Below are positions 5,662 to 33,557 of a DNA stretch of 33,855 bases, piece by piece. The DNA is from Draconibacterium orientale. Lineage in GTDB: Bacteria > Bacteroidota > Bacteroidia > Bacteroidales > JAADGE01. Numbering within the stretch: the first letter of the stretch is position 1; the number at the start of each line of letters is the position of its first letter. Below the pieces are notes generated by a model, which saw only the letters and a list, made by a program, of their open reading frames with translations, ran no database searches and was not told where the DNA came from. The DNA is taken from positions 1 through 33,855 of the forward strand of contig DYMH01000024.1 of NCBI GenBank assembly GCA_020721645.1. The letters run 5' to 3'. Both the position numbers and the translations under genes were made by a program.

Positions 5662-5687
5662 ACCGCTTAAAAAGCGGTCTTTTTTTT
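5662..5687. terminator. Bidirectional intrinsic terminator between manC and gldN
   Basis: A 7-bp GC-containing stem ACCGCTT (5662-5668) and AAGCGGT (5672-5678) has a three-base loop. It is flanked by a run of A on the left and a run of T on the right (5680-5687), so it gives a U-tract in both directions. It ends the plus-strand manC transcript and the minus-strand gldN transcript; the T-run extends into the gldN stop codon. Confidence 0.88.
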
Positions 5688-6528
5688 AAAATTCCCAGAG
5701 GTCATGTTCAAAATCGAAAATTTTTTCTTTAATATTTTCTGATTCTAACATCACTTCCAAACCCGTTGTGTACGATTGTATGAGACGATTGTTATAAACG
5801 TTTGATTCTTTAAAAATAAAACCTGTAAACATTCTTTTGAAGAAAATATCATCAAAAGTTCTGGATTCAGCTTGATTGTATGGATTGTAAACAGGTTGAT
5901 TCGCAAAAATATTTCGAGCCTCCGGATAATAAACCCAAAACAAAATTGAGTGCTTGGCATCGGTTTGTTCCAAATCATCGGCTCTGTAATATACTCGTAT
6001 GGGTGCGATTCCGATAACACGAACTTCCATAACCGAACGTTGTTTATCAAAAAACCACATTTCTTTGATTAAGACCTCTTCAACCTCACCTAAATCTGCT
6101 TTTTTCTTTTGAATAATGGGCTTAGATTCTCCTGTTTCTGCGTCAATTTCAAAAGTGGTATCAATTGAAGCCCCAAATTTTTCGTCAATTTCATTTATTG
6201 TTAATTGAGACGAAAAATCGTCATTACCAAAAGCTGTCAAACTTTTATTTTTGATACCCCACATGATAATTTGTATTAAACTTTTTCGTCCTTCAATTTC
6301 ATCTGTTGGATAATAAAGAGGCAGATTCATTTTTTCAGTCAAATTGATTCTTCTCCAAATAATTTTAGACCACATCACGTCTGCTTCACGTAAATACTGA
6401 TACGGAATCGGCTTTCGTTCCGATGAGTTATGGTCAAGATAAACACCTGTGAGCACTTGTGCATCACTCTTCAAAGAAGCTGTCAATCCAAAAGATAAAA
6501 ACATTATTATCAAAAATACTTTTTTCAT
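5686..6528 (-). CDS. gldN: Type IX secretion/gliding protein GldN (PorN)
   Basis: GldN is a periplasmic component that joins the GldK lipoprotein ring of the type IX secretion system beneath the outer membrane. The 280-residue product has a signal peptide (about 1-23, ending SDA before Q). Family marks include LREADVMWSKIIWRRINLTE near residue 47, LPLYYPTDEIEGRKSLIQII, the EVLIKEMWFFDKQRSVMEVR block (about 150-170) and RIYYRADD-like VRVIGIAPIRVYYRADD, then ILFWVYYPEARNIFA and FDDIFFKRMFTGFIFKESNV. It is the last gene of the gldKLMN set in the usual order. It ends soon after the conserved core (DLWEF), shorter than the longer C-terminal tails I recall for some homologues. Transcription stops at the terminator at 5662-5687. 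Confidence 0.95.
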   Translation of the reverse strand: MKKVFLIIMFLSFGLTASLKSDAQVLTGVYLDHNSSERKPIPYQYLREADVMWSKIIWRRINLTEKMNLPLYYPTDEIEGRKSLIQIIMWGIKNKSLTAFGNDDFSSQLTINEIDEKFGASIDTTFEIDAETGESKPIIQKKKADLGEVEEVLIKEMWFFDKQRSVMEVRVIGIAPIRVYYRADDLEQTDAKHSILFWVYYPEARNIFANQPVYNPYNQAESRTFDDIFFKRMFTGFIFKESNVYNNRLIQSYTTGLEVMLESENIKEKIFDFEHDLWEF

Positions 6529-6716
6529 GGGATATTGAATTAATTTTTTATAAATACTCGCGTTTGATAAATCAATTTTTTAAAATAAATGTATAATATG
6601 CTTGCTGAAAAAACCAGCTTTATTATTGGTTTAAAAAAATATTTTCGATGACTATTTAAATACAATATATAGTACAAACGCAGAAAATGGAATTTTATTT
6701 TACGAATTTAAACAAG

Positions 6717-6749
6717 ATAATCGCAAATGCGAAGAGCAAATGCGATTAT
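6717..6749. other. Imperfect hairpin and direct repeat downstream of gldM
   Basis: Arms ATAATCGC (6717-6724) and GCGATTAT (6742-6749) pair perfectly; the interior also contains a direct repeat of GCAAATGCGA (6723-6732 and 6736-6745). On the minus strand it begins 20 bases after the gldM stop and lacks a strong U-tract. The 241-base gldM-gldN gap otherwise shows no gene and no good -7 element, so the hairpin may trim or attenuate the transcript going into gldN rather than end it. Confidence 0.5.
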
Positions 6750-6769
6750 TCATTATAATACAATCATAA

Positions 6770-8314
6770 TTATTTTAATTTCAAAACAATGTCATTTAAC
6801 TTTCTAACAGATCCATCAGGTCCCGAGGCTTTAACTTGCTCAATAATCACTTTTTTATTTTTTCCGACTTTACTAATAAGCTGTTTTTGTTGAGGCGTAA
6901 AACTTCTACTTGTTGATTTCACTTCTTCATCAAAACCATCTATGGTTGCGGAGACAATAAATTGAGTTACATTAAAGGTTAATTGAAAATCAAAATTTTC
7001 CATTGTCGCATTTACACCCGACAATGCTATTAATGTTGTTTTATCCATAACACCACCCTTCCAATTTGTTTGATCGCTTCCGATTGTCGTTACAGGGCTA
7101 GGTACTGTTTTCACGCGGAACTCTTTTGTTCCCAAGCTTTTACCACTTGCAGTTACCGAAACTCTAACAGTTCCGGGAGTTTTTACTTTTACAATATAGC
7201 CTCCTTTTCCGTCTTTCACAATAGAACCTGCCGAAATACTGGCATTCACCTTATCAGATGCAACTCCCGCTGCTGTTATATCTACAGGATTATCAACTCC
7301 GATATAAAAGACATTCATTTTTGTAGGTGATACACTGACACTTGGAACTGCAACTTGATATTCACCTTTGAAATCATATGCTTTAATTTCGCCTGAAGGG
7401 AGTTTTAGATTTACAACACCTTTGTAAGTTCTCATACCCGGTGCACCGGTTGGTCCGTTGTAAATTCCCATACCGTTTTCGATTGGCAGTTTTGTCCCTC
7501 CATCAAGAACGACTTCGGGTTCTTGTGTCGAATCGTATGCAGCAATAAATATTTGAGCCTGATATTTCTCACCTACTAAAACATAGTTAACAGGTGAATT
7601 TACAATAGCTTTAATTTTATTGACTTTCATTTCATCTCCGCCTACTTTTGAGAATAAATATGCGATTACATCGCCTTCTGCATTTCTGACGTCGGTTTTC
7701 ATTTTTGAAAGCATCGTTAAAACAGCTGACAATGGCAAATGCTCAAAGTTCGCTTCATCCCAAGCTTTTAAACTTCCTTCATTACTCTTAATTTTTTCGG
7801 TGGACAGTGAGCTTTTCAATGCTTTTACAATGGTTTCACTTCCTTCGGAATATCCAACTAAAAGTTCACGAAACAAATCAATTTTTTTCTTAAGGTCTAA
7901 ACCTTTTTTATTCAAAATCATAATTTCGCCGGGAATATTATTCTCGTCTTTTTTCTGAACAGCTACCGGTCCATTTTTTTTGTAGAGCTCATCGGAGCCA
8001 TCGCCTTTTTTTACAATTTCATTCTGCAAGGCAGTCATATAATCGACCAACTCTTGAGCTTGAACTTTGATGACATCTGCTTTATCTTTCCATGGTTTTG
8101 TTTTTACAGGAAATTGCTCATTAAGTTTATTGAAACTTGAATAAACTGCCTCGTTCTTAGAAACCATGTTTTCAGCGGTTTTAATCAAGCTTTCGTCAAC
8201 TAAAACAAACGCATTTAAAATCTCCGCAGACACATTTAATGCCAATAAAGCTGTAAGCACTAAATACATCATATTTATCATTTTCTGTCTGGGAGATAAC
8301 TTTTTTTCGGACAT
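6770..8314 (-). CDS. gldM: Type IX secretion motor protein GldM (PorM)
   Basis: GldM spans the periplasm and, with GldL, forms the proton-driven rotary motor of type IX secretion. The 514-residue length is typical. A short cytoplasmic N-terminus (SPRQKMINMM, Arg9) leads into one membrane helix (about 14-34, YLVLTALLALNVSAEILNAF). Next come helical domain D1 and Ig-like domains: GEKYQAQIFIAAYDS marks D2, SVSPTKMNVFYIGVDNPVDI marks D3, and the C-terminal domain from about 410 includes FVVSATIDGF-like FIVSATIDGFDEEV and FTPQQKQLI, the part thought to contact the GldK/GldN ring. It lies between gldL (47 bases upstream) and gldN (241 bases downstream). Arg9 matches the position of the conserved membrane-proximal arginine known from GldLM structures. 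Confidence 0.97.
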   Translation of the reverse strand: MSEKKLSPRQKMINMMYLVLTALLALNVSAEILNAFVLVDESLIKTAENMVSKNEAVYSSFNKLNEQFPVKTKPWKDKADVIKVQAQELVDYMTALQNEIVKKGDGSDELYKKNGPVAVQKKDENNIPGEIMILNKKGLDLKKKIDLFRELLVGYSEGSETIVKALKSSLSTEKIKSNEGSLKAWDEANFEHLPLSAVLTMLSKMKTDVRNAEGDVIAYLFSKVGGDEMKVNKIKAIVNSPVNYVLVGEKYQAQIFIAAYDSTQEPEVVLDGGTKLPIENGMGIYNGPTGAPGMRTYKGVVNLKLPSGEIKAYDFKGEYQVAVPSVSVSPTKMNVFYIGVDNPVDITAAGVASDKVNASISAGSIVKDGKGGYIVKVKTPGTVRVSVTASGKSLGTKEFRVKTVPSPVTTIGSDQTNWKGGVMDKTTLIALSGVNATMENFDFQLTFNVTQFIVSATIDGFDEEVKSTSRSFTPQQKQLISKVGKNKKVIIEQVKASGPDGSVRKLNDIVLKLK

Positions 8315-8361
8315 AAAAGTTTAATTTTTATATTGTTAATTTATTTCTCTAACAGAAAATC

Positions 8362-9318
8362 TTAGCCTAACTTCACATTCATTGCTGCGAGCATATTTCC
8401 GTAAACAGTATTGAGGGCTTCAAGCTGACGTCCCAATTTAGATATTTCATCGGTATATTTTTTAGAGTATTGTACCGAACCTTTGAGGTCATTAACCATT
8501 TTATCTAAATCAGCTTCTTCGAGTTGAAGTTCAAAAATAGCGTTAAGAGCAGATAAATTTTTGTTCAAATTACCGATATTCTTACTGTAATCGACATTAC
8601 CTTCTTTTAAGGCAGAGAAATCAACTTCCATCGAACTTGTTAATTTCATGTATGCCTGTGTGAAGTTTTCGCCGGAAGTTGTTACTTTTTGCGAAACCTT
8701 AGAAAGAGAGTCGGAGAGATTTTCGGCAGAATAATTTACCGATTCGGCAGATTTTCCGAAGCTTCCGGCAAGATTTTCCATAGATGAGGTTACTCCGTCA
8801 AAAGATTTTTTGTAACCAATATTCATGCTGCCTACGGTTTCAGCTGCCGATTTCATATTTGCTGAATATTCATTGGTTGCTAATGTTGCATCGGAAATAT
8901 CTGACATTTTTGCAACTTTTTCATTCAAATTTTGGATTCCATCGCCGAATTTTTCAAATATATTGCCTGCTCCGGCTTTTTCTATCATTTGATTGAATTT
9001 TGCCATAGCTTCATTGCTTGTTGCAACTGCTTTGGTATTGTTTTTTTCGGTACGAATATCAATTTCGTCATTTTCACCTAAGCCGGCTAATTCGGGATAA
9101 ACTAATGTCCAATCTACTTCTTCGTGTAGTGGTTCAAAAGCCGAGAAAAAGAAAATGATTGCTTCAGTTCCCAAACCCGCCATCAACATGATATTTGCCC
9201 CGGGTAAGTGCAAAATTTTAAATAATGCACCGACGATTACGACAGAAGCACCTATTCCATACAGCTTTGCCATAAAATTTTTCCATCCGCGTGTTTGTGT
9301 AATTTCTGCTATTCCCAT
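8362..9318 (-). CDS. gldL: Type IX secretion motor protein GldL (PorL)
   Basis: GldL is the inner-membrane stator-like part of the GldLM motor. The 318-residue product has two membrane helices (about 19-36 and 41-61). The second carries Glu52 (GLGTEAIIFFF), aligning with the glutamate known to couple proton flow in homologues; Lys34 and His37 of the first helix (ALFKILHLPG) match the other conserved polar residues. A long cytoplasmic region follows, rich in predicted helix and low-complexity Ser/Asn/Lys with heptad-like spacing (about 95-310). This long tail makes it closer in size to PorL of Porphyromonas than to the shorter GldL of gliding Flavobacterium. It is followed closely by gldM. Upstream lies a terminator, so it may start its own transcript. 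Confidence 0.96.
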   Translation of the reverse strand: MGIAEITQTRGWKNFMAKLYGIGASVVIVGALFKILHLPGANIMLMAGLGTEAIIFFFSAFEPLHEEVDWTLVYPELAGLGENDEIDIRTEKNNTKAVATSNEAMAKFNQMIEKAGAGNIFEKFGDGIQNLNEKVAKMSDISDATLATNEYSANMKSAAETVGSMNIGYKKSFDGVTSSMENLAGSFGKSAESVNYSAENLSDSLSKVSQKVTTSGENFTQAYMKLTSSMEVDFSALKEGNVDYSKNIGNLNKNLSALNAIFELQLEEADLDKMVNDLKGSVQYSKKYTDEISKLGRQLEALNTVYGNMLAAMNVKLG

Positions 9319-9393
9319 TTTGCAAGTTATTTATTGTTTAACAAATGATTAATTATTTTTCTCTATTATTTGGTTACCGTTTAATATTTAATG

Positions 9394-9428
9394 CAATGTA
9401 AAAGTAATACATTATTTTTAATTCCAAA
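9394..9428 (-). promoter_or_regulatory. Weak candidate promoter for gldLMN
   Basis: On the minus strand a TTTTTGG (-33-like TTG, revcomp of 9423-9428) lies 23 bases before TTACATTG (9394-9401), a two-mismatch -7 element about 75 bases before the gldL start. It is downstream of the gldK terminator, the right place for a gldLMN promoter. The match is weak. Confidence 0.25.
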
Positions 9429-9487
9429 AAAAACATTTCTTTTTTTTTAAAAGAATTATTTTGATTTTATTAAACAATTTTCTTGCC

Positions 9488-9526
9488 AAAAAAAAAGTCC
9501 TCTTTACATTTTTGAGGACTTTTTTT
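9488..9526. terminator. Intrinsic terminator between gldK and gldL
   Basis: GTCCTC (9497-9502) pairs with GAGGAC (9514-9519) around an 11-base loop; the stem is extended by an A-run at 9488-9496 and a T-run at 9520-9526. The symmetry gives a U-tract in either direction. It starts 14 bases past the gldK stop on the minus strand, the normal place for an intrinsic terminator, although the T9SS genes run on in the same direction. Confidence 0.85.
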
Positions 9527-9539
9527 ATTTAGTGTTTTT

Positions 9540-10955
9540 TTAAAACCTTGAGGCATCCCAATCAGCTGCGTCACGCCCCATAAAAGATCGCACACATCGA
9601 AAGCCGATATACGATTTTGCCGTATCTTGATATTCATAGGTTCTTACTCCCACTTGCATATAATAAGCAACGTCTTTCCACGAACCTCCTCGTAAAACTT
9701 TTCTTTTCAATGCCGGTGGGTCTTCTTTGAGGGCGTTGTATGTATAATCGGGATTTAAATCGTGTGTAAAACTGTATGCCGATTCATCGAATGCGTTTGA
9801 TGTCCATTCTGCAACATTACCAGACATATCATACAATCCGTATTCGTTAGGGGCAAATTTCATGACTTCAAGCGTTCGGTTTCCTCCGTCATCACCGTAA
9901 TTCCCGCGTAATGGTTTAAAGTTTGCGATAAAACATCCGTGAACATTGCGAGTATAGGGACCGCCCCAAGGATACATCGACAGTGCAAGTCCGCCTCGTG
10001 CAGCGTACTCCCATTCGGCCTCTGTTGGAAGGCGATAGTCTTGAAAGGGTTGTTCGCCGATTGATTTTTGATAGTCTCTCATAAATTGTGTTCTCCAAAT
10101 GCAAAATGCACTGGCTTGTAACCAATCGACACCCACAACAGGATAATCGTTGTATGCAATATGCCAAAAATAACTGCGTGCCAATGGTTCATTGTATGAA
10201 TAGGTATAATCCTGCATCCACACTAAGGTATCGGGATAAACGTTGATTTTTCCGTGCATAATGAAGGACGAACGGTCTTTTATCGGTACAATTTCTCCTT
10301 TTTCGTTCACAACATTTCCTTTATATTGTCCGCCTGTAAAATCATCATTGAAATTGTAACGATTGGCACGTTTTGCGGCTTGTCTCAAATCGACCCAGAA
10401 ATATTCATAGATGAGCTTTCGGGCGTCAATTTCTTTTTGTTTGTAGAATTGTTCGTGTGCTGTGAGGAACAGAGGTCGTATCGCATTGCGATAATCTTCA
10501 TCGGCACTGTTCCACTCAATTTCTTTTTCCCAATTCAAATAACAGGTATTTAAATCTTCCGGATCATACAATTCAGGGTCGATTTTTGCTTCATCAATTT
10601 CTTTTTTGTAGCCGTCAATTTCGGCTTTAACCAGCAATCGTCGTGCCATTGAATCGCGTACCCAATATACAAATTGTTTGTATTCGCTGTTCGTGATTTC
10701 TGTAACATCCATCCAAAAAGGATCAACGGAAACGGTTTTCGATTGAGATGTATATGCGAAGGGTACGTCTTGGTCGTTTGGTCCCATATTGAAGCTTCCC
10801 TGTGGAATAAAAACCATGCCGTAAGGATCGGGCTCGTACCAGTCCTTGCTGTTGCCTATACCTGTCAATTCGCCCATCGGACCTTTTTTCTTGTTACAAC
10901 CGGCTAATATCAGCACAGCAAAAAAAACGTAACTGACAATGCTTAATTTTTTCAT
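9540..10955 (-). CDS. gldK: Type IX secretion lipoprotein GldK (PorK)
   Basis: GldK is an outer-membrane lipoprotein that builds the large periplasmic ring of the type IX secretion system with GldN. The 471-residue product starts with a lipoprotein signal ending in LAGC (Cys20). The body is a formylglycine-generating-enzyme/SUMF-like fold: GMVFIPQGSFNMG (about 46-58), FWMDVTEITNSEYKQFVYWV, YPVVGVDWLQASAFCIWRTQ, YRLPTEAEWEYAARGG, MSGNVAEWTSNAFD and the closing LRGGSWKD...IGFRCVR. The fold is used structurally here; the formylglycine activity is not expected. Length agrees with GldK/PorK. It follows the PorP-like gene by 44 bases and precedes gldL by 221 bases with a terminator in between. GldJ is a related alternative, but the gene order favours GldK. 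Confidence 0.95.
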   Translation of the reverse strand: MKKLSIVSYVFFAVLILAGCNKKKGPMGELTGIGNSKDWYEPDPYGMVFIPQGSFNMGPNDQDVPFAYTSQSKTVSVDPFWMDVTEITNSEYKQFVYWVRDSMARRLLVKAEIDGYKKEIDEAKIDPELYDPEDLNTCYLNWEKEIEWNSADEDYRNAIRPLFLTAHEQFYKQKEIDARKLIYEYFWVDLRQAAKRANRYNFNDDFTGGQYKGNVVNEKGEIVPIKDRSSFIMHGKINVYPDTLVWMQDYTYSYNEPLARSYFWHIAYNDYPVVGVDWLQASAFCIWRTQFMRDYQKSIGEQPFQDYRLPTEAEWEYAARGGLALSMYPWGGPYTRNVHGCFIANFKPLRGNYGDDGGNRTLEVMKFAPNEYGLYDMSGNVAEWTSNAFDESAYSFTHDLNPDYTYNALKEDPPALKRKVLRGGSWKDVAYYMQVGVRTYEYQDTAKSYIGFRCVRSFMGRDAADWDASRF

Positions 10956-10999
10956 AATACCTATATTATTGCTGTTAAATTTGAATTACTTTTTATTTT

Positions 11000-11932
11000 T
11001 TAAAGAAACCGTACACTTTTAAATTTATTGTTTGATACCGGTTTGAAAATATCGAAACAATATCCGACAAAAAATTCATGCGACCCACTGTTGGCTGTTC
11101 TCAATTTTGAGGTTGACAACTCGTAAGCGTATCCTATTTTTAAACCGTTAAATAAACGAAATCCAATCATGGGAACTATTGCGTCTTTATTTCTATATGT
11201 AACGCCTAAGTAAATTTTTTTATTGTATGTACCTGTAATATTATAATCCTGTGCTGTCTTCACCCCGTCTGTCTTAATGAATATTGAGGGTGTCAGCTCA
11301 AGCGGGGTATTAAAAAATCTGAAATTATATCCGCTTGTAAAATAATAATGCCTCTTCAAAAATGATGCCTCAGTTTCGGGATAGGCAATTTTGGGCTGTT
11401 GTATATGTGCTGTGGATATTCCGGCATATAAATTTCCAATTTTATAATAAATTCCCAATCCAAGGTCAAATATCATTTTACGAACATCTTTATCGGGAAT
11501 TAATGCGTCTTGCTCGGGCGAAACTTGGGGTGGATTGAAGGTTCCGCCTAAGTTAAAATTAATGAGTCCGAGTTCGATTCCGATTCCTAATTTTCCGCTC
11601 CCAATTTGTTGATGATATGAATAGGCTAATTTGGCTTGAAATTTTTTCTCGAATCCGTGCCTGTCATCTAAAACAGATAATCCAACTCCATGTATTCTTC
11701 CGAACATTTTGATGTCAGAATTGATTCCAGCCAAGGTTATTGCGGGTGCTCCTTCAAAACCCGACCACTGTTGCCGATTAATAACATAGGTACATATTTC
11801 ACCTTCAATTCCTGCATATCCGGGATTCGAAAATCCAATATTCTGTGCATTGTGTGCAAATTGTGGATCTTGTTGAGAAACCCCCTTGAATGCGGATATG
11901 AGTATAATTAATGAAAGTAATATTTTTTCCAT
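11000..11932 (-). CDS. porP: PorP/SprF family type IX outer-membrane protein
   Basis: This 310-residue protein has a signal peptide (about 1-20, ending VSQ) followed by the PorP/SprF N-terminal signature QDPQFAHNAQNIGFSNPGYA. Then come alternating beta-strand segments of a small outer-membrane barrel: FGRIHGVGLSVLDDRHGFEK, AKLAYSYHQQIGSGKLGIGI, LTPSIFIKTDG, YNKKIYLGVTYRNKDAIVPM and FNGLKIGYAYELSTSKL. PorP works with the PorK-N proteins in P. gingivalis, whereas SprF paralogues assist particular adhesins; the position directly upstream of gldK favours PorP. It ends in an R-F-L tail. It probably shares a promoter and transcript with gldK. Confidence 0.9.
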   Translation of the reverse strand: MEKILLSLIILISAFKGVSQQDPQFAHNAQNIGFSNPGYAGIEGEICTYVINRQQWSGFEGAPAITLAGINSDIKMFGRIHGVGLSVLDDRHGFEKKFQAKLAYSYHQQIGSGKLGIGIELGLINFNLGGTFNPPQVSPEQDALIPDKDVRKMIFDLGLGIYYKIGNLYAGISTAHIQQPKIAYPETEASFLKRHYYFTSGYNFRFFNTPLELTPSIFIKTDGVKTAQDYNITGTYNKKIYLGVTYRNKDAIVPMIGFRLFNGLKIGYAYELSTSKLRTANSGSHEFFVGYCFDIFKPVSNNKFKSVRFL

Positions 11933-11962
11933 TCAATGCAATTTCTAATTTTTTAGCCCAAG

Positions 11963-11994
11963 CAAAGTAAAAAAAAAAAATGGTGCAAAACAAA
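11963..11994 (-). promoter_or_regulatory. Candidate promoter for porP-gldK
   Basis: On the minus strand TTTG (11991-11994) is followed after 20 bases by TTACTTTGC (-7 element at 11963-11970), one mismatch from TAnnTTTG. The end of the -7 element lies 30 bases before the ATG at 11932. The same TTACTTTGC string occurs upstream of topA. Confidence 0.42.
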
Positions 11995-12142
11995 AACCAT
12001 TCAAAAATTTATTTTTATGTTTTTTTTTAATGACTTTTTATAATTTTTTTGATACTGATTACACACCATGTATCTTAAAAAAATTAATCTATACATATTA
12101 TTTGTACGAAAAATGGCTGAATTTTGTTGCATTCGTTTGGTG

Positions 12143-13309
12143 TTAATTTAATTTTTGGAAATATTTAAGCCATTTATCAGGTATTTCGTTATCGCAGGCT
12201 CGAAGATAATCGGAATGTGAACACGAAACAATATAATGTTTTTCGTTTTTTTTTGTGGTATAGGGAACTTCAAACCACCAACGATTTGTTTTTTCGCTTT
12301 GAAGAAAAATTATTTTTTGATCTGACTTTTCTTGGGCTACAATAAATTTTTTATAATTTGTATCGGAATGTTTTGGTTTTTCGTTTTGCCTGAGGTAGTA
12401 TCCTTGAATGAAATGCCAAATGATTTGTGCTGCCAATTCGGCGGTTTGGTTATGAACATCGAATGCAGGATTTAATTCAAATAATCCGAAACTTGTAAGT
12501 TTTTCGCTCAATCCGGCATATTTTGCGAGCTGACACACTTCTTCGGCATAAAAACCATTTACAGAGGGATTTGAGTTTGCCGGAGCATCACATTGTTTGA
12601 TACTCGAAAAATCGAGACTTACAAAATCGGATTCTCTCAGATAGGGCTCGTTTTCGTGTATAATTGAACGTGCTACTCCCAATCTGATGGTATCGAAAAA
12701 CAGATTTTTCATCAACAGAATTTCTTCTTGGGCAGCATAATAGGTTTGAAACCCAATATTTGTAAAATTAAATAAGTATTTGCTCTTTGAAAGTACAATG
12801 TTGCTCAGCCATGTTTTAGAATTGAGCTCTACTTCGGCATTTCCCAAATCAAAGCGTGCATCAATTGATGTAATATTAACCTTTCGTTTTAATTTTTCGT
12901 AGGCGTAAAATACGGGGAGCGACAAATCTTGGGTTCCTCCGAATATAAGCGGAATTACGTTGTTTTTAAGTAATTCATAAACCACGTCTTTTTCTGCTGC
13001 ATAGGTATCTTTTACTGATTTTCCTATTTTTAGATTTCCCAAATCGACAACAGCAATGTTATCGAAAGGTTTGTATAGTTTATAAAACTCACGACGAATT
13101 GAATCTACAGCCTTTCCGCTACCTTTGTTGTATGAATTTCGGTCTTCGGGTATGCCGAATATTGCTACATGATATTTTTCAATATCCTGAATCGGTGTTT
13201 TGAGAGTATTTTTATCGATTGAAAAAAAAAGCGACTCGGTTCGCGACATGAAATTATATTCGGTGTCTGCAAAATCAACGGGTTCAAAATATTCTTTGAA
13301 AATTGTCAT
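12143..13309 (-). CDS. Arginase/formimidoylglutamase-fold protein, probably catalytically inactive
   Basis: The 388-residue product aligns with the ureohydrolase (arginase) fold: HVAIFGIPEDRNSYNKGSGK (about 47-66), VVDLGNLKIG, VIPLIFGGTQDLSLP (119-132), ITSIDARFD (146-154), FVSLDFSSIKQCDAP (229-243) and FGLFELNPAFDVHNQTAELA (about 274-293). In active enzymes six residues hold two Mn ions. Here the GGxH histidine is Gln127, the DAHxD histidine is Arg152 and the second Asp of SxDxD is Ser235, while Asp150, Asp154 and Asp233 remain. Three of six ligands are lost, so hydrolysis of formimidoylglutamate or arginine is unlikely. A roughly 90-residue C-terminal extension (about 300-388) is Lys/Trp-rich. 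It follows topA by 12 bases and precedes the T9SS genes. Function is unknown to me; automatic naming as HutG would be doubtful. Confidence 0.85.
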   Translation of the reverse strand: MTIFKEYFEPVDFADTEYNFMSRTESLFFSIDKNTLKTPIQDIEKYHVAIFGIPEDRNSYNKGSGKAVDSIRREFYKLYKPFDNIAVVDLGNLKIGKSVKDTYAAEKDVVYELLKNNVIPLIFGGTQDLSLPVFYAYEKLKRKVNITSIDARFDLGNAEVELNSKTWLSNIVLSKSKYLFNFTNIGFQTYYAAQEEILLMKNLFFDTIRLGVARSIIHENEPYLRESDFVSLDFSSIKQCDAPANSNPSVNGFYAEEVCQLAKYAGLSEKLTSFGLFELNPAFDVHNQTAELAAQIIWHFIQGYYLRQNEKPKHSDTNYKKFIVAQEKSDQKIIFLQSEKTNRWWFEVPYTTKKNEKHYIVSCSHSDYLRACDNEIPDKWLKYFQKLN

Positions 13310-13321
13310 TGAACGGTGATA

Positions 13322-15844
13322 TTATTTTTTCTTTTTCTTCTCATTTTTTGCCGGACTTGCCTTTACATTGGCAATCAGAAGACAATCTTCGAGTGTCAAA
13401 TCGCCGGCTTCTTTTTTAATTTTCGAGAGGTTAAAATACTTTTTTTTATAATAAACACAAGGTCGCCCCCAACGGTCTTTAATTACACTTATTTCTTTAT
13501 TTTCAGCAAATTCTTTGATAATCCGGTCGGTATCTTTTTTCCTTTTTTCCTGTATCAATTCAATTGCACGGTCAAGTTCAATGGTCATCGGGTCGTCGAT
13601 TTTGGCAAGTGAGACAAATTTCGAATCGTGGGATAGATAGGGTCCAAAACGTCCGACAGCGACCACGACTTTTTTTGATTCAAACAAGCCGATTTCTCGC
13701 GGCAATTTGAATAATTCCATGGCTTCTGCCAGAGTCAGTGTTTCAATGTTCATGCCCTTTTGCAGTGAAGCGTAACGAGGTTTTTCGTCATCATCGGTCT
13801 CACCGATTTGTGCCATGGGTCCAAAACGTCCGACACGAACATAAACATTCTTTTTTGTTTTGGTATCAATCCCCAACAATCGTCCTTTGCCCGAATTTTT
13901 CAACAAATCCAAGGCAATTTCCAAAGTGAGTGTTTCGATATGCATATTTTTTGGTAAACTGACATATTGCGGTTTTTCCGTATCCGTTGCCAAACCAACT
14001 TGTACGATTGGACCGAATTTCCCGAGTCGTGCCGAAATCTGACGTCCGGTTTCGGGTTCTATTCCTAATATTTTTTCTCCGGCATTGCGTTCCGAATTTT
14101 GAATAACATCATCGATTGTGGGCTTAAAATTTTTGTAAAATTTGTCGAGCATTTCAAACCAAACCAATTTTCCTTCTGCAATATCGTCAAATTCTTTTTC
14201 AACGTCTGCCGTAAAATTAAAATCGACGATTCGCTCAAAATTTTCAGTCAGAAAATCAGTTACTACCATGCCTATATCTGTTGGGAATAATTTTGCTTTT
14301 TCGGCTCCGTAGTTTTCATTTTTTGTTTCCTGAGAAATTTTTCCGTTTTTGTAGGTTATAAATTGGTATTCTCGCACCATGCCGTCTCGATTTTCTTTGA
14401 CTACATAGCCTCGTTTTTGAATAGTAGAAATTGTCGGTGCATAAGTAGAAGGTCTCCCGATACCCAACTCTTCGAGTTTACGAACCAGTGTTGCTTCGCC
14501 GTATCGGGCAGCATGTTTGGTAAATTTCTCAATGGCTTCAATTCGATTCAAATCTAAATGTTGTCCAACTTTTACATCGGGCAAAATAACCGAATTTTCT
14601 TCTTCCGAATCCTCATCAACCGGAACCGAATATGCTTTCAGAAATCCATCGAAAGTAATAATTTCGCCTGTGGTTAAAAATTTTTCAGAACCTCCGGAAA
14701 CGGCAATTTCGATGGTCGTTTTTTCGAACGCAGCGTCAGCCATTTGCGATGCCAATGTGCGTTTACGAATTAAATCATAAAGCCTTGTTTCATCTGAAGA
14801 ACCTTTAATATCCTCATTTTCAATATATGTCGGCCGAATAGCTTCGTGGGCTTCCTGAGCACCTTTGGATTTTGTTTTATAATGCCGAATTTTCAAATAT
14901 TTTTCGCCGTATTCTTTTAATATCGTTTGTTTTGCGGCATTTAATGCGGTATCCGAAAGATTTACAGAATCGGTTCTCATATATGTAATGATTCCGGATT
15001 CGTATAAATTTTGTGCCACAAGCATGGTTTTTGCGACCGGGAATCCTAATTTTCGGGCGGCTTCCTGTTGCAAAGTCGAAGTTGTAAAAGGTGGTTGCGG
15101 CGTGCGTTTCCCGGGTTTTTTTTCGATATTGAAAATAGAATAATCCGATTTTCCGTATTGATTGAGGAAATCCAAAACTTCCTTTGTTGTTTTCAACTGT
15201 CGCGATAATTCTGATTTTAGAATGATTTTTTCTCCTTTCTCATTGATGATATTAAAAATGGCATAAACTCTAAAAGATACTTGTTGTTTGAAATTGATAA
15301 TTTCTCGTTCCCTATCCACAAGTAAACGCACAGCAACGGATTGCACTCGACCGGCAGAGAGAGAGGATTTCACTTTTTTCCATAAAACAGACGATAACTC
15401 GAAGCCTACGATTCTGTCTAAAATACGGCGTGCTTGCTGTGCATTGACTAAATCCAAATTAATTTCACCCGGATTATTTACGGCATTTAATATGGCATCT
15501 TTGGTTATTTCGTGAAAAACGATACGTTTGCAATCTTTTTTTTTCAAACCCAAAACCTCATACAAATGCCAAGCAATTGCTTCTCCTTCGCGGTCTTCAT
15601 CGGAAGCCAACCATATTGTTTGCGACTCACTCACTAATTTTTTCAGCTCGGTAATCACTTTTTTCTTTTCAGGAAGAATTAGATATTTCGGAGTAAAGTT
15701 TTTTGAAATATCGATTCCCAAATCTTTCTTTTCCAAATCGCGTATGTGTCCAAAACTTGACTTCACTACGAACTCTTTCCCTAAAAATTTCTCAATAGTT
15801 TTTGCTTTTGCAGGCGATTCTACGATGACTAAGTTTTTTCCCAT
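13322..15844 (-). CDS. topA: DNA topoisomerase I
   Basis: TopA relaxes negative supercoils through a transient 5'-phosphotyrosine bond. I chose the ATG at 15844 (840 residues), which opens directly on the toprim strand MGKNLVIVESPAKAKTIEKF; a TTG three codons upstream is possible. Catalytic features are Glu9, the DxD of LASDEDREGEAIAWH (Asp82, Asp84), SAGRVQSVAVRLLVDRE (163-179), the active-site Tyr288 in GIITYMRTDS, and GIGRPSTYAPTI. The C-terminal part has no Cys4 zinc ribbons. Instead it has three repeats of a topoisomerase C-terminal motif: ARLGKFGPIVQVG, VRVGRFGPMAQIG and VAVGRFGPYLS, each followed by a Y/F-V/A-SL strand; the tail is Lys-rich. It is first in the run leading to the arginase-fold gene, 12 bases away. 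Confidence 0.96.
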   Translation of the reverse strand: MGKNLVIVESPAKAKTIEKFLGKEFVVKSSFGHIRDLEKKDLGIDISKNFTPKYLILPEKKKVITELKKLVSESQTIWLASDEDREGEAIAWHLYEVLGLKKKDCKRIVFHEITKDAILNAVNNPGEINLDLVNAQQARRILDRIVGFELSSVLWKKVKSSLSAGRVQSVAVRLLVDREREIINFKQQVSFRVYAIFNIINEKGEKIILKSELSRQLKTTKEVLDFLNQYGKSDYSIFNIEKKPGKRTPQPPFTTSTLQQEAARKLGFPVAKTMLVAQNLYESGIITYMRTDSVNLSDTALNAAKQTILKEYGEKYLKIRHYKTKSKGAQEAHEAIRPTYIENEDIKGSSDETRLYDLIRKRTLASQMADAAFEKTTIEIAVSGGSEKFLTTGEIITFDGFLKAYSVPVDEDSEEENSVILPDVKVGQHLDLNRIEAIEKFTKHAARYGEATLVRKLEELGIGRPSTYAPTISTIQKRGYVVKENRDGMVREYQFITYKNGKISQETKNENYGAEKAKLFPTDIGMVVTDFLTENFERIVDFNFTADVEKEFDDIAEGKLVWFEMLDKFYKNFKPTIDDVIQNSERNAGEKILGIEPETGRQISARLGKFGPIVQVGLATDTEKPQYVSLPKNMHIETLTLEIALDLLKNSGKGRLLGIDTKTKKNVYVRVGRFGPMAQIGETDDDEKPRYASLQKGMNIETLTLAEAMELFKLPREIGLFESKKVVVAVGRFGPYLSHDSKFVSLAKIDDPMTIELDRAIELIQEKRKKDTDRIIKEFAENKEISVIKDRWGRPCVYYKKKYFNLSKIKKEAGDLTLEDCLLIANVKASPAKNEKKKKK

Positions 15845-15885
15845 TTTCGGCAAAATTATATTCTGTTTTTTTTCAAAAAGTTCTG

Positions 15886-23815: not shown

Positions 23816-25762
23816 TTGAAACTTCCAATATTTTTCGCTCTTTTGTTGAAGTTGAGTTCTGTGTATGCTCAACAAATTAGTTTTTTGGATTTTTCGGAGC
23901 CTGACAGCCTTGAATATCAAAAAGCATTAGTAGAAATACGAATCCAAAAAGCAAACGATTTTTCCCGAAACAGAAATTATTCGGTGATTCAGGATTTTAC
24001 AAAAGATGAATCACGATTTCAATTGAATTTTTCGATACAGGAATATCTGGAAAACACGAATATCCAATCCACATCTTTCGGCAATAAAATGCAGATGCTC
24101 GAAAACAGTAATGAACCATGGATACAATTCGTGCCCGCAGAAGGGAAAAAAGAAATAATTTACGGCATTTGGCGGCAAAACCTCATTCATATATCCAATG
24201 AAAATCAACTTCCGGAACGCATTGGTGAAGGATTTGACTTTTTGGTTTCGGAAGGATATTCAGATTTGGCTGTAGATTATTTGCCCTTTATCGGAATGTT
24301 GATGGAAGAGCAATATCTCTATCATTACGACAAAACGCGACTTGCAGCTTTCGGCAAAGGTGCCAAAGGGATTGTAACGACCGTGGATTTATTAAATTCG
24401 CTTGCCACGCAAGACCCCGCAATTGTTGCGGGAGTTTGCCGCGATACACACGATGCCGGATTGCGTATTTTACGAGTCTTGGCTCAGGATTATTACACAC
24501 ATTTTTACCCTGAAAAAAAAATTGATATCGACGATTATATTTTCCTCCAATCGTGGACTACCGACCATTCGCAACACATCACAATTTCGCTTATTAACCC
24601 AACTGATATGTCGAAAGTCTATGAATTGGATTGGGGCAGAACCATTGTTAAAGACCGGACACGCGGCTACGAACACGGTCGCAATTACGGAAACACCTAT
24701 CGGATTTGGAAATTCGACAAACACAGCAACACAACAATTCCTTTGGATTTTAAACGGACACAAATCGGAAAATTATACGATCGTCATTTTTTTTCTTTTG
24801 ATGAAAATACACGATTTATGGGCATTCCGGATTTCGACACGTATTCCGACATCACCTATTTTCAACCCGCAAAACATCGGATAAGTTACACTGCATCTGT
24901 CGGAATTTTACCGATGCAGCAATATTTTGGCTTGTTGGGTTTGATACATCGCTCACGGTTGCGGCACATCGGTCGATTTATTGAATATCGAGGAGCAACC
25001 GGTTTGCAAGTGCTGTACTTTGAAGATCATCTCAAAAAAAATCTTTTATTTCCTATCTATCATTACTCTAAAACTTACAGCCTGCAAGCAATGCCTCGCT
25101 ATATTGCCGCCTTCAAAACCAAAGACATGAGTTTGAGCAACAAGTTGAAACTCGATTTATTTTCGGAGAACACGATTGAAATTTTTTTAACGAGTTCGTA
25201 TTTCGATTCGGACAATCCGACCGATTATAAGCATTACAACAAATCGGGCGACGGCAATGTGATTTTTGTTCAGGGAGCACGCATGCAATACGGAAAGGAC
25301 AAGGACAAATTTTCGGCTCGTATGATTCTTCAAAACCGAAGTTTTCCGATTCCAAAAGATGTTCGCCTAATGTCGCCCAATCCGTTTGAACTTTTTGGAA
25401 ATGCCATCATTGTAAGTCCGGCTAAGGATTTAATTTTAGATTTTAATTACAATGCATTTTCACAGTTTTCGCTCGCATGGGAAACAATCGGCGAATACAC
25501 AAATATGCACGACGTGCTACTTTTTTCACAAATCGTAGTCAAAAAACAGTATAAAAACCAAGCAACTTTGTCAGCCTCAGCATCGATAACACGGCAATTA
25601 AAAGGTTTATCGTATTATTGGTATCCTACCGAAAATATCAGCATTAAAGCCGAATTTGAAACTAAAAACCAAGCAAATTCTTTCGGGATTCTTTTACAAT
25701 TTCCAAAAAATCAACCGCCGGTTTTCGGAATTTCTTATAAAAAGTTAATAAATAATGGTTAA
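23816..25762 (+). CDS. Secreted protein with possible transglutaminase-like Cys-His-Asp core
   Basis: I do not recognise this 648-residue protein by name. It appears to start at a TTG (23816): the frame has no nearby in-frame ATG upstream and the TTG opens onto a good signal peptide (about 1-18, ending VYA before QQ). The middle has a pattern like the transglutaminase/papain fold: GVCRDTHDAGLRIL with Cys208 at the start of a helix, then a strand HSQHITISLI with His254, then VYELDWGR with Asp272. The order and approximate spacing Cys-His-Asp match that family. The part after about residue 345 is rich in alternating aromatic/polar strands (SARMILQNRSF, DLILDFNYNAFSQF, QATLSASASITRQL), suggesting a beta-barrel or beta-sandwich. 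It may act at the periplasmic face of the outer membrane. The enzyme assignment is inference. Confidence 0.72.
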   Translation: MKLPIFFALLLKLSSVYAQQISFLDFSEPDSLEYQKALVEIRIQKANDFSRNRNYSVIQDFTKDESRFQLNFSIQEYLENTNIQSTSFGNKMQMLENSNEPWIQFVPAEGKKEIIYGIWRQNLIHISNENQLPERIGEGFDFLVSEGYSDLAVDYLPFIGMLMEEQYLYHYDKTRLAAFGKGAKGIVTTVDLLNSLATQDPAIVAGVCRDTHDAGLRILRVLAQDYYTHFYPEKKIDIDDYIFLQSWTTDHSQHITISLINPTDMSKVYELDWGRTIVKDRTRGYEHGRNYGNTYRIWKFDKHSNTTIPLDFKRTQIGKLYDRHFFSFDENTRFMGIPDFDTYSDITYFQPAKHRISYTASVGILPMQQYFGLLGLIHRSRLRHIGRFIEYRGATGLQVLYFEDHLKKNLLFPIYHYSKTYSLQAMPRYIAAFKTKDMSLSNKLKLDLFSENTIEIFLTSSYFDSDNPTDYKHYNKSGDGNVIFVQGARMQYGKDKDKFSARMILQNRSFPIPKDVRLMSPNPFELFGNAIIVSPAKDLILDFNYNAFSQFSLAWETIGEYTNMHDVLLFSQIVVKKQYKNQATLSASASITRQLKGLSYYWYPTENISIKAEFETKNQANSFGILLQFPKNQPPVFGISYKKLINNG

Positions 25763-30446: not shown

Positions 30447-31613
30447 CTACGGCTTCCATTTTTTGATAATCGCATTGAAAACATTTTTTACCGAAACTGC
30501 TTCAACACAAGGAAATGCTTTGTTTTCAAACCGATTCAAATATTTGCACTTCCAATTACAGTTAAAACAATCCATTTTAAAATATTGAATCACAGGGAAA
30601 TATTCCGAATTATTTTCGGTTTCGGTTTTATACGGCAAAAATCTTCCGAAATGTCCGCCACCTAGAATACAAAAACTTTTTGTGCGAAGCGCAGCCGCTA
30701 AATGAACAGCAACTGTATCGTTTGTTACTACAAATTCCGATTTTTTAATGATATAAGCAAGCTGCGATAATTTTGTTTTTCCGGTTTTATTGTGGATATT
30801 TTGTGTCGAATTATGAATAAAATCGGCAGTTTCAATATTGTTTTTTCCGCCGCATAAAATACAATCAATTCGGTATTTTTGTGTTAATTGCAAAATAAGT
30901 TCAACAAAATTTTCTTTTGCCCATTCTTTTTTCTCGGAACTTGCTCCGGGAAAAACAACGAAATATTTTTCGGGCAAATCATCAACTTCAATACTTTGAA
31001 AAAAATCATTGGGAAATTCGTAAACATTTGCAGAATAATCTATTCCGAGTTTCCTCAAAAATTTTGCATTTACAATAAATTCATGTTCGTTTATATATTC
31101 GATATCTATAATTTCGGAATACCATGAATCGGAAATCCGTAATTTTAATTTCGAGCTGTTTGTGTAATCGGGTTTTAAAGCAATTTTTCGGTCGGCGGAA
31201 ATGAAGCGTGAAATACTATCGTCGATCCAAAAAACTCTCGAAAAAACAACATTTATATTTTCTTTGTAATGTAATTTTTTCAATTTTCGCAGAATCGAAA
31301 TACGATAAAATATCTTTTCATAAAACAAATTTGTTTTAATTGCAATAATTTCGCTCCAATAAGGCATTTTAGCTGCAATTTCATAATTTATTTCGTTTAC
31401 TGCGAGCGTTATGTTTTGCCTGCCGAAATGTTCGGAAAATGCACGTGCCGAATCGAGCCAAATAATAAAATCTCCTATTGCATCGGTTTTTATCAAGATA
31501 ATTTTATCGGATTTTATTTTCTTTGGGAAATAGAAATATTTCAGAATAAAATCAATAAAAAACAATGTAATAAAATGAACTGTTTTACCAATAAAATCAA
31601 ATAAATATCTCAT
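30447..31613 (-). CDS. Glycosyltransferase family 9 (heptosyltransferase-like)
   Basis: The 388-residue product resembles ADP-heptose:LPS heptosyltransferases. It shows the N-terminal strand-loop ILIKTDAIGDFIIWL (39-53), the central FPGASSEKKEWAKENFVELI (221-240) that begins the C-terminal Rossmann domain, CILCGG (251-256), the GKTKLSQLAYIIK stretch and FVVTNDTVAVHLAAAL (294-309) binding the nucleotide. A C-terminal four-cysteine cluster (Cys349, 352, 356, 369: CFNC, KC, PC) is found in some GT9 proteins of this phylum and may bind metal. The N-terminus adds a hydrophobic segment (about 9-29) that may tether it to the membrane. It should transfer a sugar to a lipid- or LPS-linked acceptor. 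The start overlaps the pyruvyl-transferase-like gene by four bases. Confidence 0.9.
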   Translation of the reverse strand: MRYLFDFIGKTVHFITLFFIDFILKYFYFPKKIKSDKIILIKTDAIGDFIIWLDSARAFSEHFGRQNITLAVNEINYEIAAKMPYWSEIIAIKTNLFYEKIFYRISILRKLKKLHYKENINVVFSRVFWIDDSISRFISADRKIALKPDYTNSSKLKLRISDSWYSEIIDIEYINEHEFIVNAKFLRKLGIDYSANVYEFPNDFFQSIEVDDLPEKYFVVFPGASSEKKEWAKENFVELILQLTQKYRIDCILCGGKNNIETADFIHNSTQNIHNKTGKTKLSQLAYIIKKSEFVVTNDTVAVHLAAALRTKSFCILGGGHFGRFLPYKTETENNSEYFPVIQYFKMDCFNCNWKCKYLNRFENKAFPCVEAVSVKNVFNAIIKKWKP

Positions 31614-32716
31614 AGAATCGAGTCTGTGAAAATTGTGAGATAATCTTGTTCTGCTTGGGCTTTGATGATTTTAAACCTGTTTTCGAAATCATTGGCACCG
31701 GTTTTTAACCACTTATAAATTTCAGTCAGTTTTTCAAAATTCATGTCATTTACAAAATATGAGTGCGAACCGACAACTTCTGCCATTTTTGCCCGAGAAT
31801 CGTTACCAATAATCACGGCAGGGCGACCGAATGAAATGATTGGAAAAGCTCCGTGAATGCGATTCATGATTCCGTATTTAACTTTTGCATAAAATTTTAT
31901 ATAATCAACGTAATTTTCGGAATAAAAAGTTTCAGAATCAGGAAATTTGGTTTTTGCCGTTTTTAATTCTTTTTTGCTGTGGCAAATAAAAACGGTTTTC
32001 TCTTTGTCTTTTATTTCATTATAAAACTTTGTAAATTCATTGTCCCATTTTTCGTAATCAATTTTTTGCCCAAACTCGTAATGACCTCCGCCGCTCATAA
32101 AATTCAATGCCAAATATTCCGGATTTTCGGGTTTGATATTCAGCAAATCGGACACAAATATTGATGTGCAAGGAATAACAGGAGCCGCGATTTTCAATGA
32201 ATCGAGCATTTGAGATGCAATATTGTCGCGAAGTGTTGTTAATGCAGACACAGAGCTTAATTCTTTGATGTATTTTGAACATTTTGGGCATTTTGTGACT
32301 TCTTTTCCATTGCTTTCCCACGTTTGACACGAACCGGCTGCAATATTAAAAAATTTTGCTTTCGATTTGCATAATCTTTTTTTTATCAAAGGCTTATACC
32401 ATTCGTTGTCGGCACAATGAGCTTCCGGTTTGCCCGAATGACACCAATAAACAGGTGCTCCGCTTTGAATGACGATGTCGGCTTGCAAAATTTTATCTTT
32501 GTTTGAAAGTATCGGCAAAATGAATTCGAGAAGTTGCGAAATGCGGTAGTTTCTGAGACGTTCAAACCCCTTTACAACCGTTATCGGACTGTGTTTGTGG
32601 ATATATTCATATTCTATCGGGCGATTTAATTTTGAGAGTAAATATTTTATTCCTTCCCGAATAAAATCGTCGCCAACGTTGTGATTTATTGTTGTTATAA
32701 AAGTAATTTTAAGCAT
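31610..32716 (-). CDS. Polysaccharide pyruvyl transferase family protein
   Basis: The 368-residue protein fits the PS_pyruv_trans family: N-terminal FITTINHNVGDDFIREGIKYL (about 6-26), IVIQSGAPVYW (81-91), a FICHSKKE strand (243-250) and the diagnostic YGIMNRIHGAFPIISFGRPAVIIGND (about 281-306) with His288. Family enzymes attach pyruvate ketals to surface sugars, but some members have other roles. A middle insert carries Cys143-Pro-Lys-Cys146 together with Cys92, Cys101 and Cys130, not usual in the core family, and may form a metal site. It overlaps the methyltransferase gene by 8 bases and the GT9 gene by 4 bases, a tightly coupled operon. Confidence 0.87.
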   Translation of the reverse strand: MLKITFITTINHNVGDDFIREGIKYLLSKLNRPIEYEYIHKHSPITVVKGFERLRNYRISQLLEFILPILSNKDKILQADIVIQSGAPVYWCHSGKPEAHCADNEWYKPLIKKRLCKSKAKFFNIAAGSCQTWESNGKEVTKCPKCSKYIKELSSVSALTTLRDNIASQMLDSLKIAAPVIPCTSIFVSDLLNIKPENPEYLALNFMSGGGHYEFGQKIDYEKWDNEFTKFYNEIKDKEKTVFICHSKKELKTAKTKFPDSETFYSENYVDYIKFYAKVKYGIMNRIHGAFPIISFGRPAVIIGNDSRAKMAEVVGSHSYFVNDMNFEKLTEIYKWLKTGANDFENRFKIIKAQAEQDYLTIFTDSIL

Positions 32717-33557
32717 CGTTTTTAAATTTTAGAAATGCAAGATAAGGTTTTGATAAGCCGACTGGTGTTTTACTTTTAAGCATGAAGATTTTGGAAATTA
32801 AATTAAAAAATCGACCGAATATGAAACCGAATTTTCCGGAACCTAATATCGTTCCCAATCTTTTATGAATATTATTTTTAAAGAAAAAGCGTTCTCCTAT
32901 GTAAGTTTGGTCGATTAATTTTAAGCCCGTCGGAATTATTATTTGATTTCTCAATGTTTCTTCATCATAAAATCTTTGGAAAAATATTTTTTCATTCCTC
33001 TTATTATCAATGTAATACACGTTTTTATAGGTATATTCGTGAAAAAATTTTTTATAGAAAGGAACCGAAATTGTGAAAATTCCGGTTGTGTTTAAAAGTG
33101 ATTTTATAATTTTCGAAGCTTCAATATCTCCGCCGTTTTCGGGATAAATGTGTTCAAAAACCGAACTCGAAAAAATGTAATCGAAACTCCCGATTTTGTT
33201 CTTTAAATCTTGATTTTTAATGTCTTCTTGTATTGTTTTAATATTTTTCAATTTTAAAACATTGATTCTCTGTTTCATATCCAAAATTTCATCATCAAAC
33301 GGGTTCAAATAAAGTATTTCCCATTTCGGATTGTGATATGCCAAACTCAACGACAATAATTGCGGCGATGAAATATCCAAAATCCTCAACTTGTTTCTTT
33401 TTTCGTTCAGAATACCGCTGATATCAATCACTTCCGGAATTTCTCGTGTGCGAGTATAAGCTACGGGCATCAGTAAATTTTGAACCGCAGCTTTCATTAA
33501 ATTCAACGAAAACTTATTATAGGTTTTTCTGAATATTTTTTTTGCTTGATATTTCAA
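32709..33557 (-). CDS. SAM-dependent methyltransferase-like protein
   Basis: This 282-residue protein has the shape of a class I methyltransferase: a strand LRILDIS (about 57-63) in place of motif I, a second strand WEILYLNPFDDEI with an acidic residue, then the strand FDYIFSSSVFEHI (about 126-138), the usual Methyltransf_11 motif, and GIFTISVPFY. Motif I lacks the usual G-x-G glycines (DISSPQLLS), so SAM binding is uncertain. A basic N-terminus (MKYQAKKIFRKTYNK) and a C-terminal hydrophobic patch (GFIFGRFFNLISKIFML) could attach it to the membrane. It is the first gene of the three-gene glycan operon and overlaps the next by eight bases. Confidence 0.78.
   Translation of the reverse strand: MKYQAKKIFRKTYNKFSLNLMKAAVQNLLMPVAYTRTREIPEVIDISGILNEKRNKLRILDISSPQLLSLSLAYHNPKWEILYLNPFDDEILDMKQRINVLKLKNIKTIQEDIKNQDLKNKIGSFDYIFSSSVFEHIYPENGGDIEASKIIKSLLNTTGIFTISVPFYKKFFHEYTYKNVYYIDNKRNEKIFFQRFYDEETLRNQIIIPTGLKLIDQTYIGERFFFKNNIHKRLGTILGSGKFGFIFGRFFNLISKIFMLKSKTPVGLSKPYLAFLKFKNDA

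Follow-up and report, generated by a model that had tools for sequence, protein, structure and literature searches.

LapG, whose fold has been described as transglutaminase-like (PMC4359373, PMC4866520), is a periplasmic protease that releases an adhesin from the cell surface by cutting it. Its partner LapD keeps it at the inner membrane (PMC4241560), according to the excerpts of the papers that are cited in this paragraph. The same excerpts present HvyA as a restriction factor of capsulation that is transglutaminase-like and has the residues C192-H226-D241 (PMC4241560), and they align E171 of VASH1, the cysteine of which is C169, with the calcium-binding D139 of LapG (PMC4866520). DUF4105 is described there as Lnb, the lipoprotein N-acyltransferase of Bacteroides, a permuted NlpC/P60 protein (PMC12994826).

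The protein presented here is encoded in a window of 33,855 nucleotides, which is the whole stretch of DNA that was analyzed (contig C193 of a draft genome of 3.8 Mb that is 97% complete). In the reading proposed below, LapG and HvyA (C93, PF06035) are its functional analogues: it is likewise predicted to be exported and has a cysteine, a histidine and an aspartate in the same order. LapG is not known to have a barrel. HvyA comprises a signal sequence and one domain, as drawn in the part of PMC4241560 available to us, whereas the window protein adds a barrel. As far as these excerpts give the positions, the distance from cysteine to histidine is 46 in the window protein vs. 34 in HvyA, 11–12 longer than in VASH1 and HvyA, while the distance from histidine to aspartate (18) is near those of HvyA (H226-D241, 15) and VASH1 (H204-S221, 17). 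The aspartate two positions after the cysteine is likened to that of LapG through the VASH1/LapG alignment, in the same excerpted form. Lnb resembles the window protein as an envelope thiol acyltransferase of Bacteroidota, but differs from it, in the excerpt of PMC12994826, by its permuted NlpC/P60 topology, and the two have no sequence match.

The gene and its product

The gene is an intact ORF, the coordinates of which are given in Table 1 together with those of the features assigned to its product. Upstream of the start there is no in-frame ATG, GTG or TTG before the preceding stop codon, and a methionine of the relative L016 (also numbered L007) aligns with the TTG. Both the frame and the start codon given by the first-pass annotation were thus found again. 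Judged by eye, the N-terminus (LKLPIFFALLLKLSSVYAQ) resembles a type-I signal peptide without a lipobox cysteine, in line with the signal peptide claimed earlier; hydrophobic N-termini were also seen in the relatives L016, L017, L018 and L009. The helices at residues 60–177 occur in both structure models described below, of which the trimmed one spans residues 105–345 only, and the stretch DxLPFxxMLMxE...HY consists of residues that are invariant in the alignment of relatives. All three residues to which the first-pass annotation had drawn attention are present: C208 in AGVCRDTHDAG, H254 in HSQHITISLI and D272 in YELDWGR.

Table 1. Positions in the window of the gene and of the features assigned to its product
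Feature	Residues	Positions	Strand	Basis or remark
Whole gene	648 aa	23816..25762	+	TTG start, intact ORF
Signal peptide, no lipobox, cut assumed after VYA	1–18	23816..23869	+	by eye
N-terminal region, predicted mostly helical, with the conserved DxLPFxxMLMxE...HY stretch	60–177	23993..24346	+	
Putative transglutaminase-like core, best conserved part	178–300	24347..24715	+	identity and model topology
Cys208, putative nucleophile, sole cysteine of the protein	208	24437..24439	+	alignment and model
His254, putative general base	254	24575..24577	+	invariant in 4/4; directly before a strand in both models
Asp272, putative orienting residue	272	24629..24631	+	invariant in 4/4; last residue of the next strand in both models
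Predicted C-terminal beta-barrel, 14 model strands	346–648	24851..25759	+	model and fold matches

Relatives and distribution

Sequence searches of Pfam and PADLOC (both E up to 1) and of NCBIfam and the PDB (both E up to 10) yielded nothing for the window protein, which agrees with the earlier impression of a protein unlike any family that could be named. As the versions of Pfam and NCBIfam that were searched do not cover the family, it could merit an entry of its own. Its relatives gave three rows against Pfam, all below the curated cut-offs and all N-terminal of the core. Searches with tblastn returned no match among plasmids for the window protein or L016 and none among phages for the window protein; no match was found in viral contigs. 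The PHROGs profiles gave weak rows alone, the best of them at E 0.0032 over 28 residues of L016.

Genomes were searched with a single protein, with alignments or with a relative, in samples that overlap one another. Relatives were accepted in five genomes besides the window's own, all of the same order. Those of G406 and G278 are of full length and share 28–33% identity with the window protein in the alignment, that of G798 comprises the first 339 residues and that of G104 the first 208 (both end at a contig end), and that of G799 consists of two fragments. Within the window's own family (21 genomes) there was no match at E <= 0.001 beyond the window's genome, which was also the sole match at this threshold in two samples of the phylum (395 and 287 genomes). 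A collection of genome contigs yielded no match to the single sequence and three loci when the alignment was the query: L016 and L017, from Bacteroidales MAGs, and L018, from Bacteroidetes bacterium 4572_117.

Several further candidates were dropped. L010 (G206, E 7e-4) overlies an ORF read by eye as a MoxR-type ATPase and was not recovered when 393 genomes of the order were searched with a profile. From this profile search, G001, G089, G196 and G354 (E 0.002–0.008) were set aside as false or unproven, two of them having internal stops; G001, a member of the window's own family, had no match at E 0.001 in the family scan. G852, G871 and G1060 (E about 0.003, in a sample of 395 genomes of the class) were weak rows, and G028, G053, G041 and G059 (E 0.01–0.14) were discarded as false or unproven.

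The accepted sequences show the mark of purifying selection, dN lying far below dS in all five pairs compared, among them L016–L015 (dN 0.09, dS 0.89), L016–L014 (0.21 and 1.30) and L016–L017 (0.34 and 2.1). Such selection on its counterparts elsewhere shows that the ORF is more than a chance reading frame. Judging from the sequences compared, its product is a rare, conserved exported protein of some Bacteroidales bacteria.

Conservation of the putative catalytic residues

Four sequences reach the core, namely those of the window, L016, L017 and L018; L009, L014 and L015 stop short of it and are left out of the counts for the three residues. Cys208, His254 and Asp272 stand in the order expected of PF01841 and are invariant in 4/4 of these sequences with identical spacing (46 and 18), so that the conservation of the triad, which the first-pass annotation had asked to be checked among homologues, was borne out. 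As 44 of the 123 columns of the core are invariant, this invariance alone is modest evidence. It is strengthened by the finding that C208 is the lone cysteine of the 648-residue protein. The same holds for L016; the available part of L018 has no cysteine besides that of the core, L017 has one extra in the barrel, and L009 and L014 have one each within their first 30 residues. With a single cysteine in the chain, there is no intramolecular disulfide by which the conservation of Cys208 could be explained. Asp210, at Cys+2, is also invariant in the core alignment.

In each of the three pairs compared, the core was better conserved than any other segment. Between the window protein and L016, identity amounted to 44% in the core, 36% in the helical stretch before it and 26% in both the N-terminus and the barrel, and the corresponding values for L017 were 44%, 40%, 28% (N-terminus) and 24% (barrel). 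L016 and L017 share 70% identity in the core and 62% in the barrel, which is nearly as conserved between these two.

Sequence comparison with thiol-enzyme families

The G-V-C-x-D motif at the start of a helix, followed by histidine and aspartate on neighboring strands (in the window protein, according to the models), is a likeness to Transglut_core (PF01841), with GVCQD found in L037, L041 and L046. By HMM, however, PF01841 did not match the window protein (E up to 1), the three core-reaching relatives or the four cores alone (E up to 10 for both), and neither C93/BTLCP (PF06035, LapG) nor Lnb/DUF4105 (PF13387) matched the window protein, its relatives or the cores. To compare profiles, we aligned 33 PF01841 cores (those with loci given), drawn from a set of 41 genomes of the order and in part from the window's own. 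The best local hhalign match covered 17 columns, pairing AGVCRD...R with the transglutaminase G-C motif in the right register. Its score of 15.75 (reversed control, 9.64) was attained by 23 of 200 column shuffles; the similarity is therefore not significant, and a link to PF01841 at the profile level was not upheld. The HaW and GIPAR motifs, which many of the aligned PF01841 cores contain, are absent from the window core. Searched against PDB sequences, the core profile returned two chance-level rows only, a terpene cyclase and Rop (E 0.89 and 1.1), whose names point to other folds. We do not claim membership in PF01841, C93 or DUF4105 by sequence; the resemblance that we propose is one of working mode only, in that the protein would work like such enzymes.

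Two PF01841 proteins lie near each other elsewhere in the window's genome (G000 C38 16247–18360). They are presumably of the DUF3857-like type, and in one of them, L024, the residues aligned with the catalytic GDC are GNS.

Structure models of the core

Two AlphaFold models, each built from four sequences and of low confidence, were compared: one of the full-length protein (mean pLDDT 40.7, pTM 0.32) and one trimmed to residues 105–345 (mean pLDDT 58.1, pTM 0.63). They agree on a topology of helices, then a helix starting at about Cys208 (207–230 / 208–230), then strands. In the trimmed model Cys208 is the first residue of its helix (104–126 in model numbering). In both models a strand begins directly after His254, and Asp272 closes the strand that follows; the two strands are likely hairpin partners, and a hairpin would set the two residues opposite each other. 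A cysteine helix followed by strands with histidine and aspartate is the transglutaminase order, predicted here by models of low confidence. Between core and barrel, both contain a short helix (316–324 / 316–325).

Fold searches leaned the same way. Foldseek returned 532 matches to the trimmed model, 0 of them with E <= 0.001, and the first row was an unrelated protein. Of 995 of the matched chains compared by VIA-align, 100 reached Z >= 2 and none reached Z >= 5; the best Z (4.8) is a value that common arrangements can also give. By our own count, papain/transglutaminase-fold enzymes make up 18 of the best 50 rows and represent eight different proteins: LapG (4 rows, with 4u65_E counted as LapG), NTAQ1 (5), Ceg10 (3), MCF (2), and GdmF, SseI, USP1 and USP28 (1 each), all of which, besides LapG, we take to have this fold; 8ebv_H (XPC/TFIIH), perhaps a transglutaminase-fold chain, was left out of the 18. 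The top enzyme row was Ceg10 (9b8d; Z 4.8, 5.1 A, 127 residues), and the LapG rows spanned Z 4.2–4.6, including 4fgo (Z 4.6, rmsd 4.6 A, 128 residues). None of the best 50 rows is named as a PF01841 enzyme. Since unrelated rows (2r41, IMPase, DUF4467) stand beside the enzymes with similar values (Z 4.0–4.6), we regard the fold matches of the core as a lean, not as proof. The comparison with the transglutaminase and papain folds that had been suggested earlier thus came out in part: the order of the topology agrees, while the matches by fold are weak (Z <= 4.8, no Foldseek E <= 0.001).

A predicted outer-membrane barrel

The full-length AlphaFold model, of low pLDDT, has 14 strands within residues 346–648. 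Its seven Foldseek hits with E <= 0.001 are all outer-membrane barrel proteins, two BamACDE chains among them being taken as BamA from their length. In VIA-align, 498 of 988 chains had Z >= 5 and 454 had Z >= 8. The best rows were those of CymA (Z 15.2, 4.1 A, 249 residues) and OmpG (Z 14.6, 3.9 A, 214 residues); taken together, the rows of these two proteins have Z 14.1–15.2 over 214–256 residues, about residues 350–648 of the window protein. CymA and OmpG are monomeric porins with 14 strands. The likeness thus concerns the barrel part and its number of strands, whereas sequence identity to the window protein is only 4–7%, and to our knowledge neither porin carries an enzyme domain. A beta-rich, barrel-like C-terminal part of about 300 residues had been claimed from the sequence, and the porin-like model with Z up to 15.2 speaks for it. 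The prediction that the C-terminal part is an outer-membrane beta-barrel is well supported, albeit by a model of low pLDDT from few sequences.

Proposed function and alternatives

We consider it rather probable that the product is an outer-membrane-tethered, probably periplasm-facing, putative thiol hydrolase or acyltransferase, for which we infer catalysis, sidedness and substrate. After export by the Sec pathway, the C-terminal 300 residues would insert into the outer membrane as a 14-stranded barrel, from which the helical segment and the transglutaminase-like thiol domain would hang, with the periplasm as the most likely side. His254, itself oriented by Asp272, would activate Cys208 at the head of its helix, and the cysteine would attack a carbonyl (of an amide, ester or thioester) in an envelope substrate to form an acyl-enzyme. 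This intermediate could then be resolved by water, as in a hydrolase, or by an amine or hydroxyl, as in a transferase. As Asp210 is at the LapG-type calcium-binding position, calcium dependence is possible by analogy. The first-pass annotation had suggested a periplasmic cysteine hydrolase or transferase fused to a barrel. Conservation of the triad, order of the topology and the barrel argue for this interpretation; yet the matches do not settle the fold, and it is only partly supported because of the core pLDDT (58.1), the best Z of 4.8 and the non-significant profile comparison.

The strongest rival, which we regard as unlikely, is an autotransporter-like protein whose enzyme domain would pass through or beside the barrel to the cell surface and there cut or cross-link external proteins. 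It holds this rank because the order of domains fits type V proteins, which are built as signal peptide, passenger, short helix and C-terminal barrel, and the models place such a short helix before the barrel. Against surface display, the model has 14 strands and matches CymA and OmpG best, an autotransporter title is missing from the 50 barrel matches listed from VIA-align, and the Pfam autotransporter barrel (PF03797) gave no HMM match with the window protein or its relatives. It also seems improbable to us that the core has the transglutaminase-like fold without being an enzyme, acting instead as a module for binding or scaffolding that is attached to a porin, with its cysteine kept for another reason. 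Papain-fold domains without activity exist, such as the Rad4 family in the excerpt of PMC10318531, and the missing HaW and GIPAR motifs would suit a scaffold, but the three catalytic positions are invariant in 4/4 sequences and the cysteine is the only one of the protein.

We give very little weight to a relative or mimic of Lnb, the permuted NlpC/P60 lipoprotein N-acyltransferase of Bacteroides (DUF4105). It shares the phylum and a thiol chemistry on the envelope with the proposed enzyme (excerpt of PMC12994826), but PF13387 was not matched in Pfam, the third conserved residue is an aspartate 18 residues after the histidine, and the strands come after the cysteine helix in the models, so that the order looks unpermuted. 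Hardly credible, finally, is that a shallow alignment produced both barrel and core as artefacts and that the gene encodes a conserved exported protein of some other fold. The mean pLDDT values of 40.7 and 58.1 and the weak matches of the core could be read in this way; the barrel nevertheless reaches Z 14–15, and the order of the triad was read from the sequence before any model was built, its conservation being independent of the models.

Relation to described envelope enzymes

In a full-text search, of which titles and the openings of abstracts were considered, we found no description of a transglutaminase-like, cysteine-protease or DUF4105 domain joined to an outer-membrane barrel or porin. 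A term search of the main text of a classification of papain-like enzymes (PMC10318531) did not find 'outer membrane'. The parts of the putative outer-membrane thiol enzyme are of known kinds, while their combination and the sequence family appear to be undescribed within the literature searched. We put forward as a tentative, rather doubtful idea that it represents a new enzyme family, in which a transglutaminase-like thiol domain and a 14-strand outer-membrane barrel share one chain and the pore or the lipid-facing edge of the barrel feeds the active site with a glycan, a lipid or an exported protein at the outer membrane. If this is true, the protein would be a self-contained station for modification or release at that membrane. 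The barrel enzymes PagP, PagL, OMPLA and OmpT have their active site within the barrel itself; a barrel to which a thiol domain for acyl transfer or proteolysis is covalently joined would be another route for such chemistry at the outer membrane.

Genetic context

In the window, the gene has a divergent sigma-54-like gene upstream of it and a gap of 208 bp before the start of the next gene downstream, an arrangement that fits the earlier statement that the gene is not in an operon. Another family is different: in four of its genomes (L016, L017, L018 and L014), the gene is found 12, 16, 87 and 19 bp, respectively, behind a same-strand hutG-like gene, and because of these gaps the two may be co-transcribed there. 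The hutG-like identity was tested by HMM in L016 only and judged by eye in the other three. A WecA-like gene precedes the hutG-like gene in L017, L018 and L014 (HMM tests in L018 only, the others by eye), and WcaF-like and family-2 glycosyltransferase genes follow the gene in L017. No hutG-like gene adjoins the gene at the window locus, nor does one adjoin it on the upstream side in L064 (by eye), and other polysaccharide genes of the window are kilobases away from the gene. The context in the relatives hints at most at polysaccharide, a weak lead on which we base no function.

In L017, the hutG-like gene is split (1295–2309) into ORFs at 1295–1714 and 1851–2309, by a natural frameshift or an assembly error. 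An arginase-family protein encoded in the window (12143–13309, minus strand) and the hutG-like neighbor in L016 share 30% identity across 269 positions. The minus strand also carries a type IX secretion cluster (5686–15853) with GldN, GldM, GldL, an FGE-sulfatase-domain protein that is GldK-like by position, and PorP/SprF, after which come the arginase-family protein and a topoisomerase. At 30447–33557 (minus strand), a family-9 glycosyltransferase, a polysaccharide pyruvyl transferase and a protein with a weak match to a methyltransferase are encoded in a row, probably as a surface-glycan operon. A small LEA_2-domain protein (Pfam E 6.5e-9) is encoded at 1198–1671 on the minus strand, and the start of its gene overlaps that of a divergent AIR-synthase-related gene.
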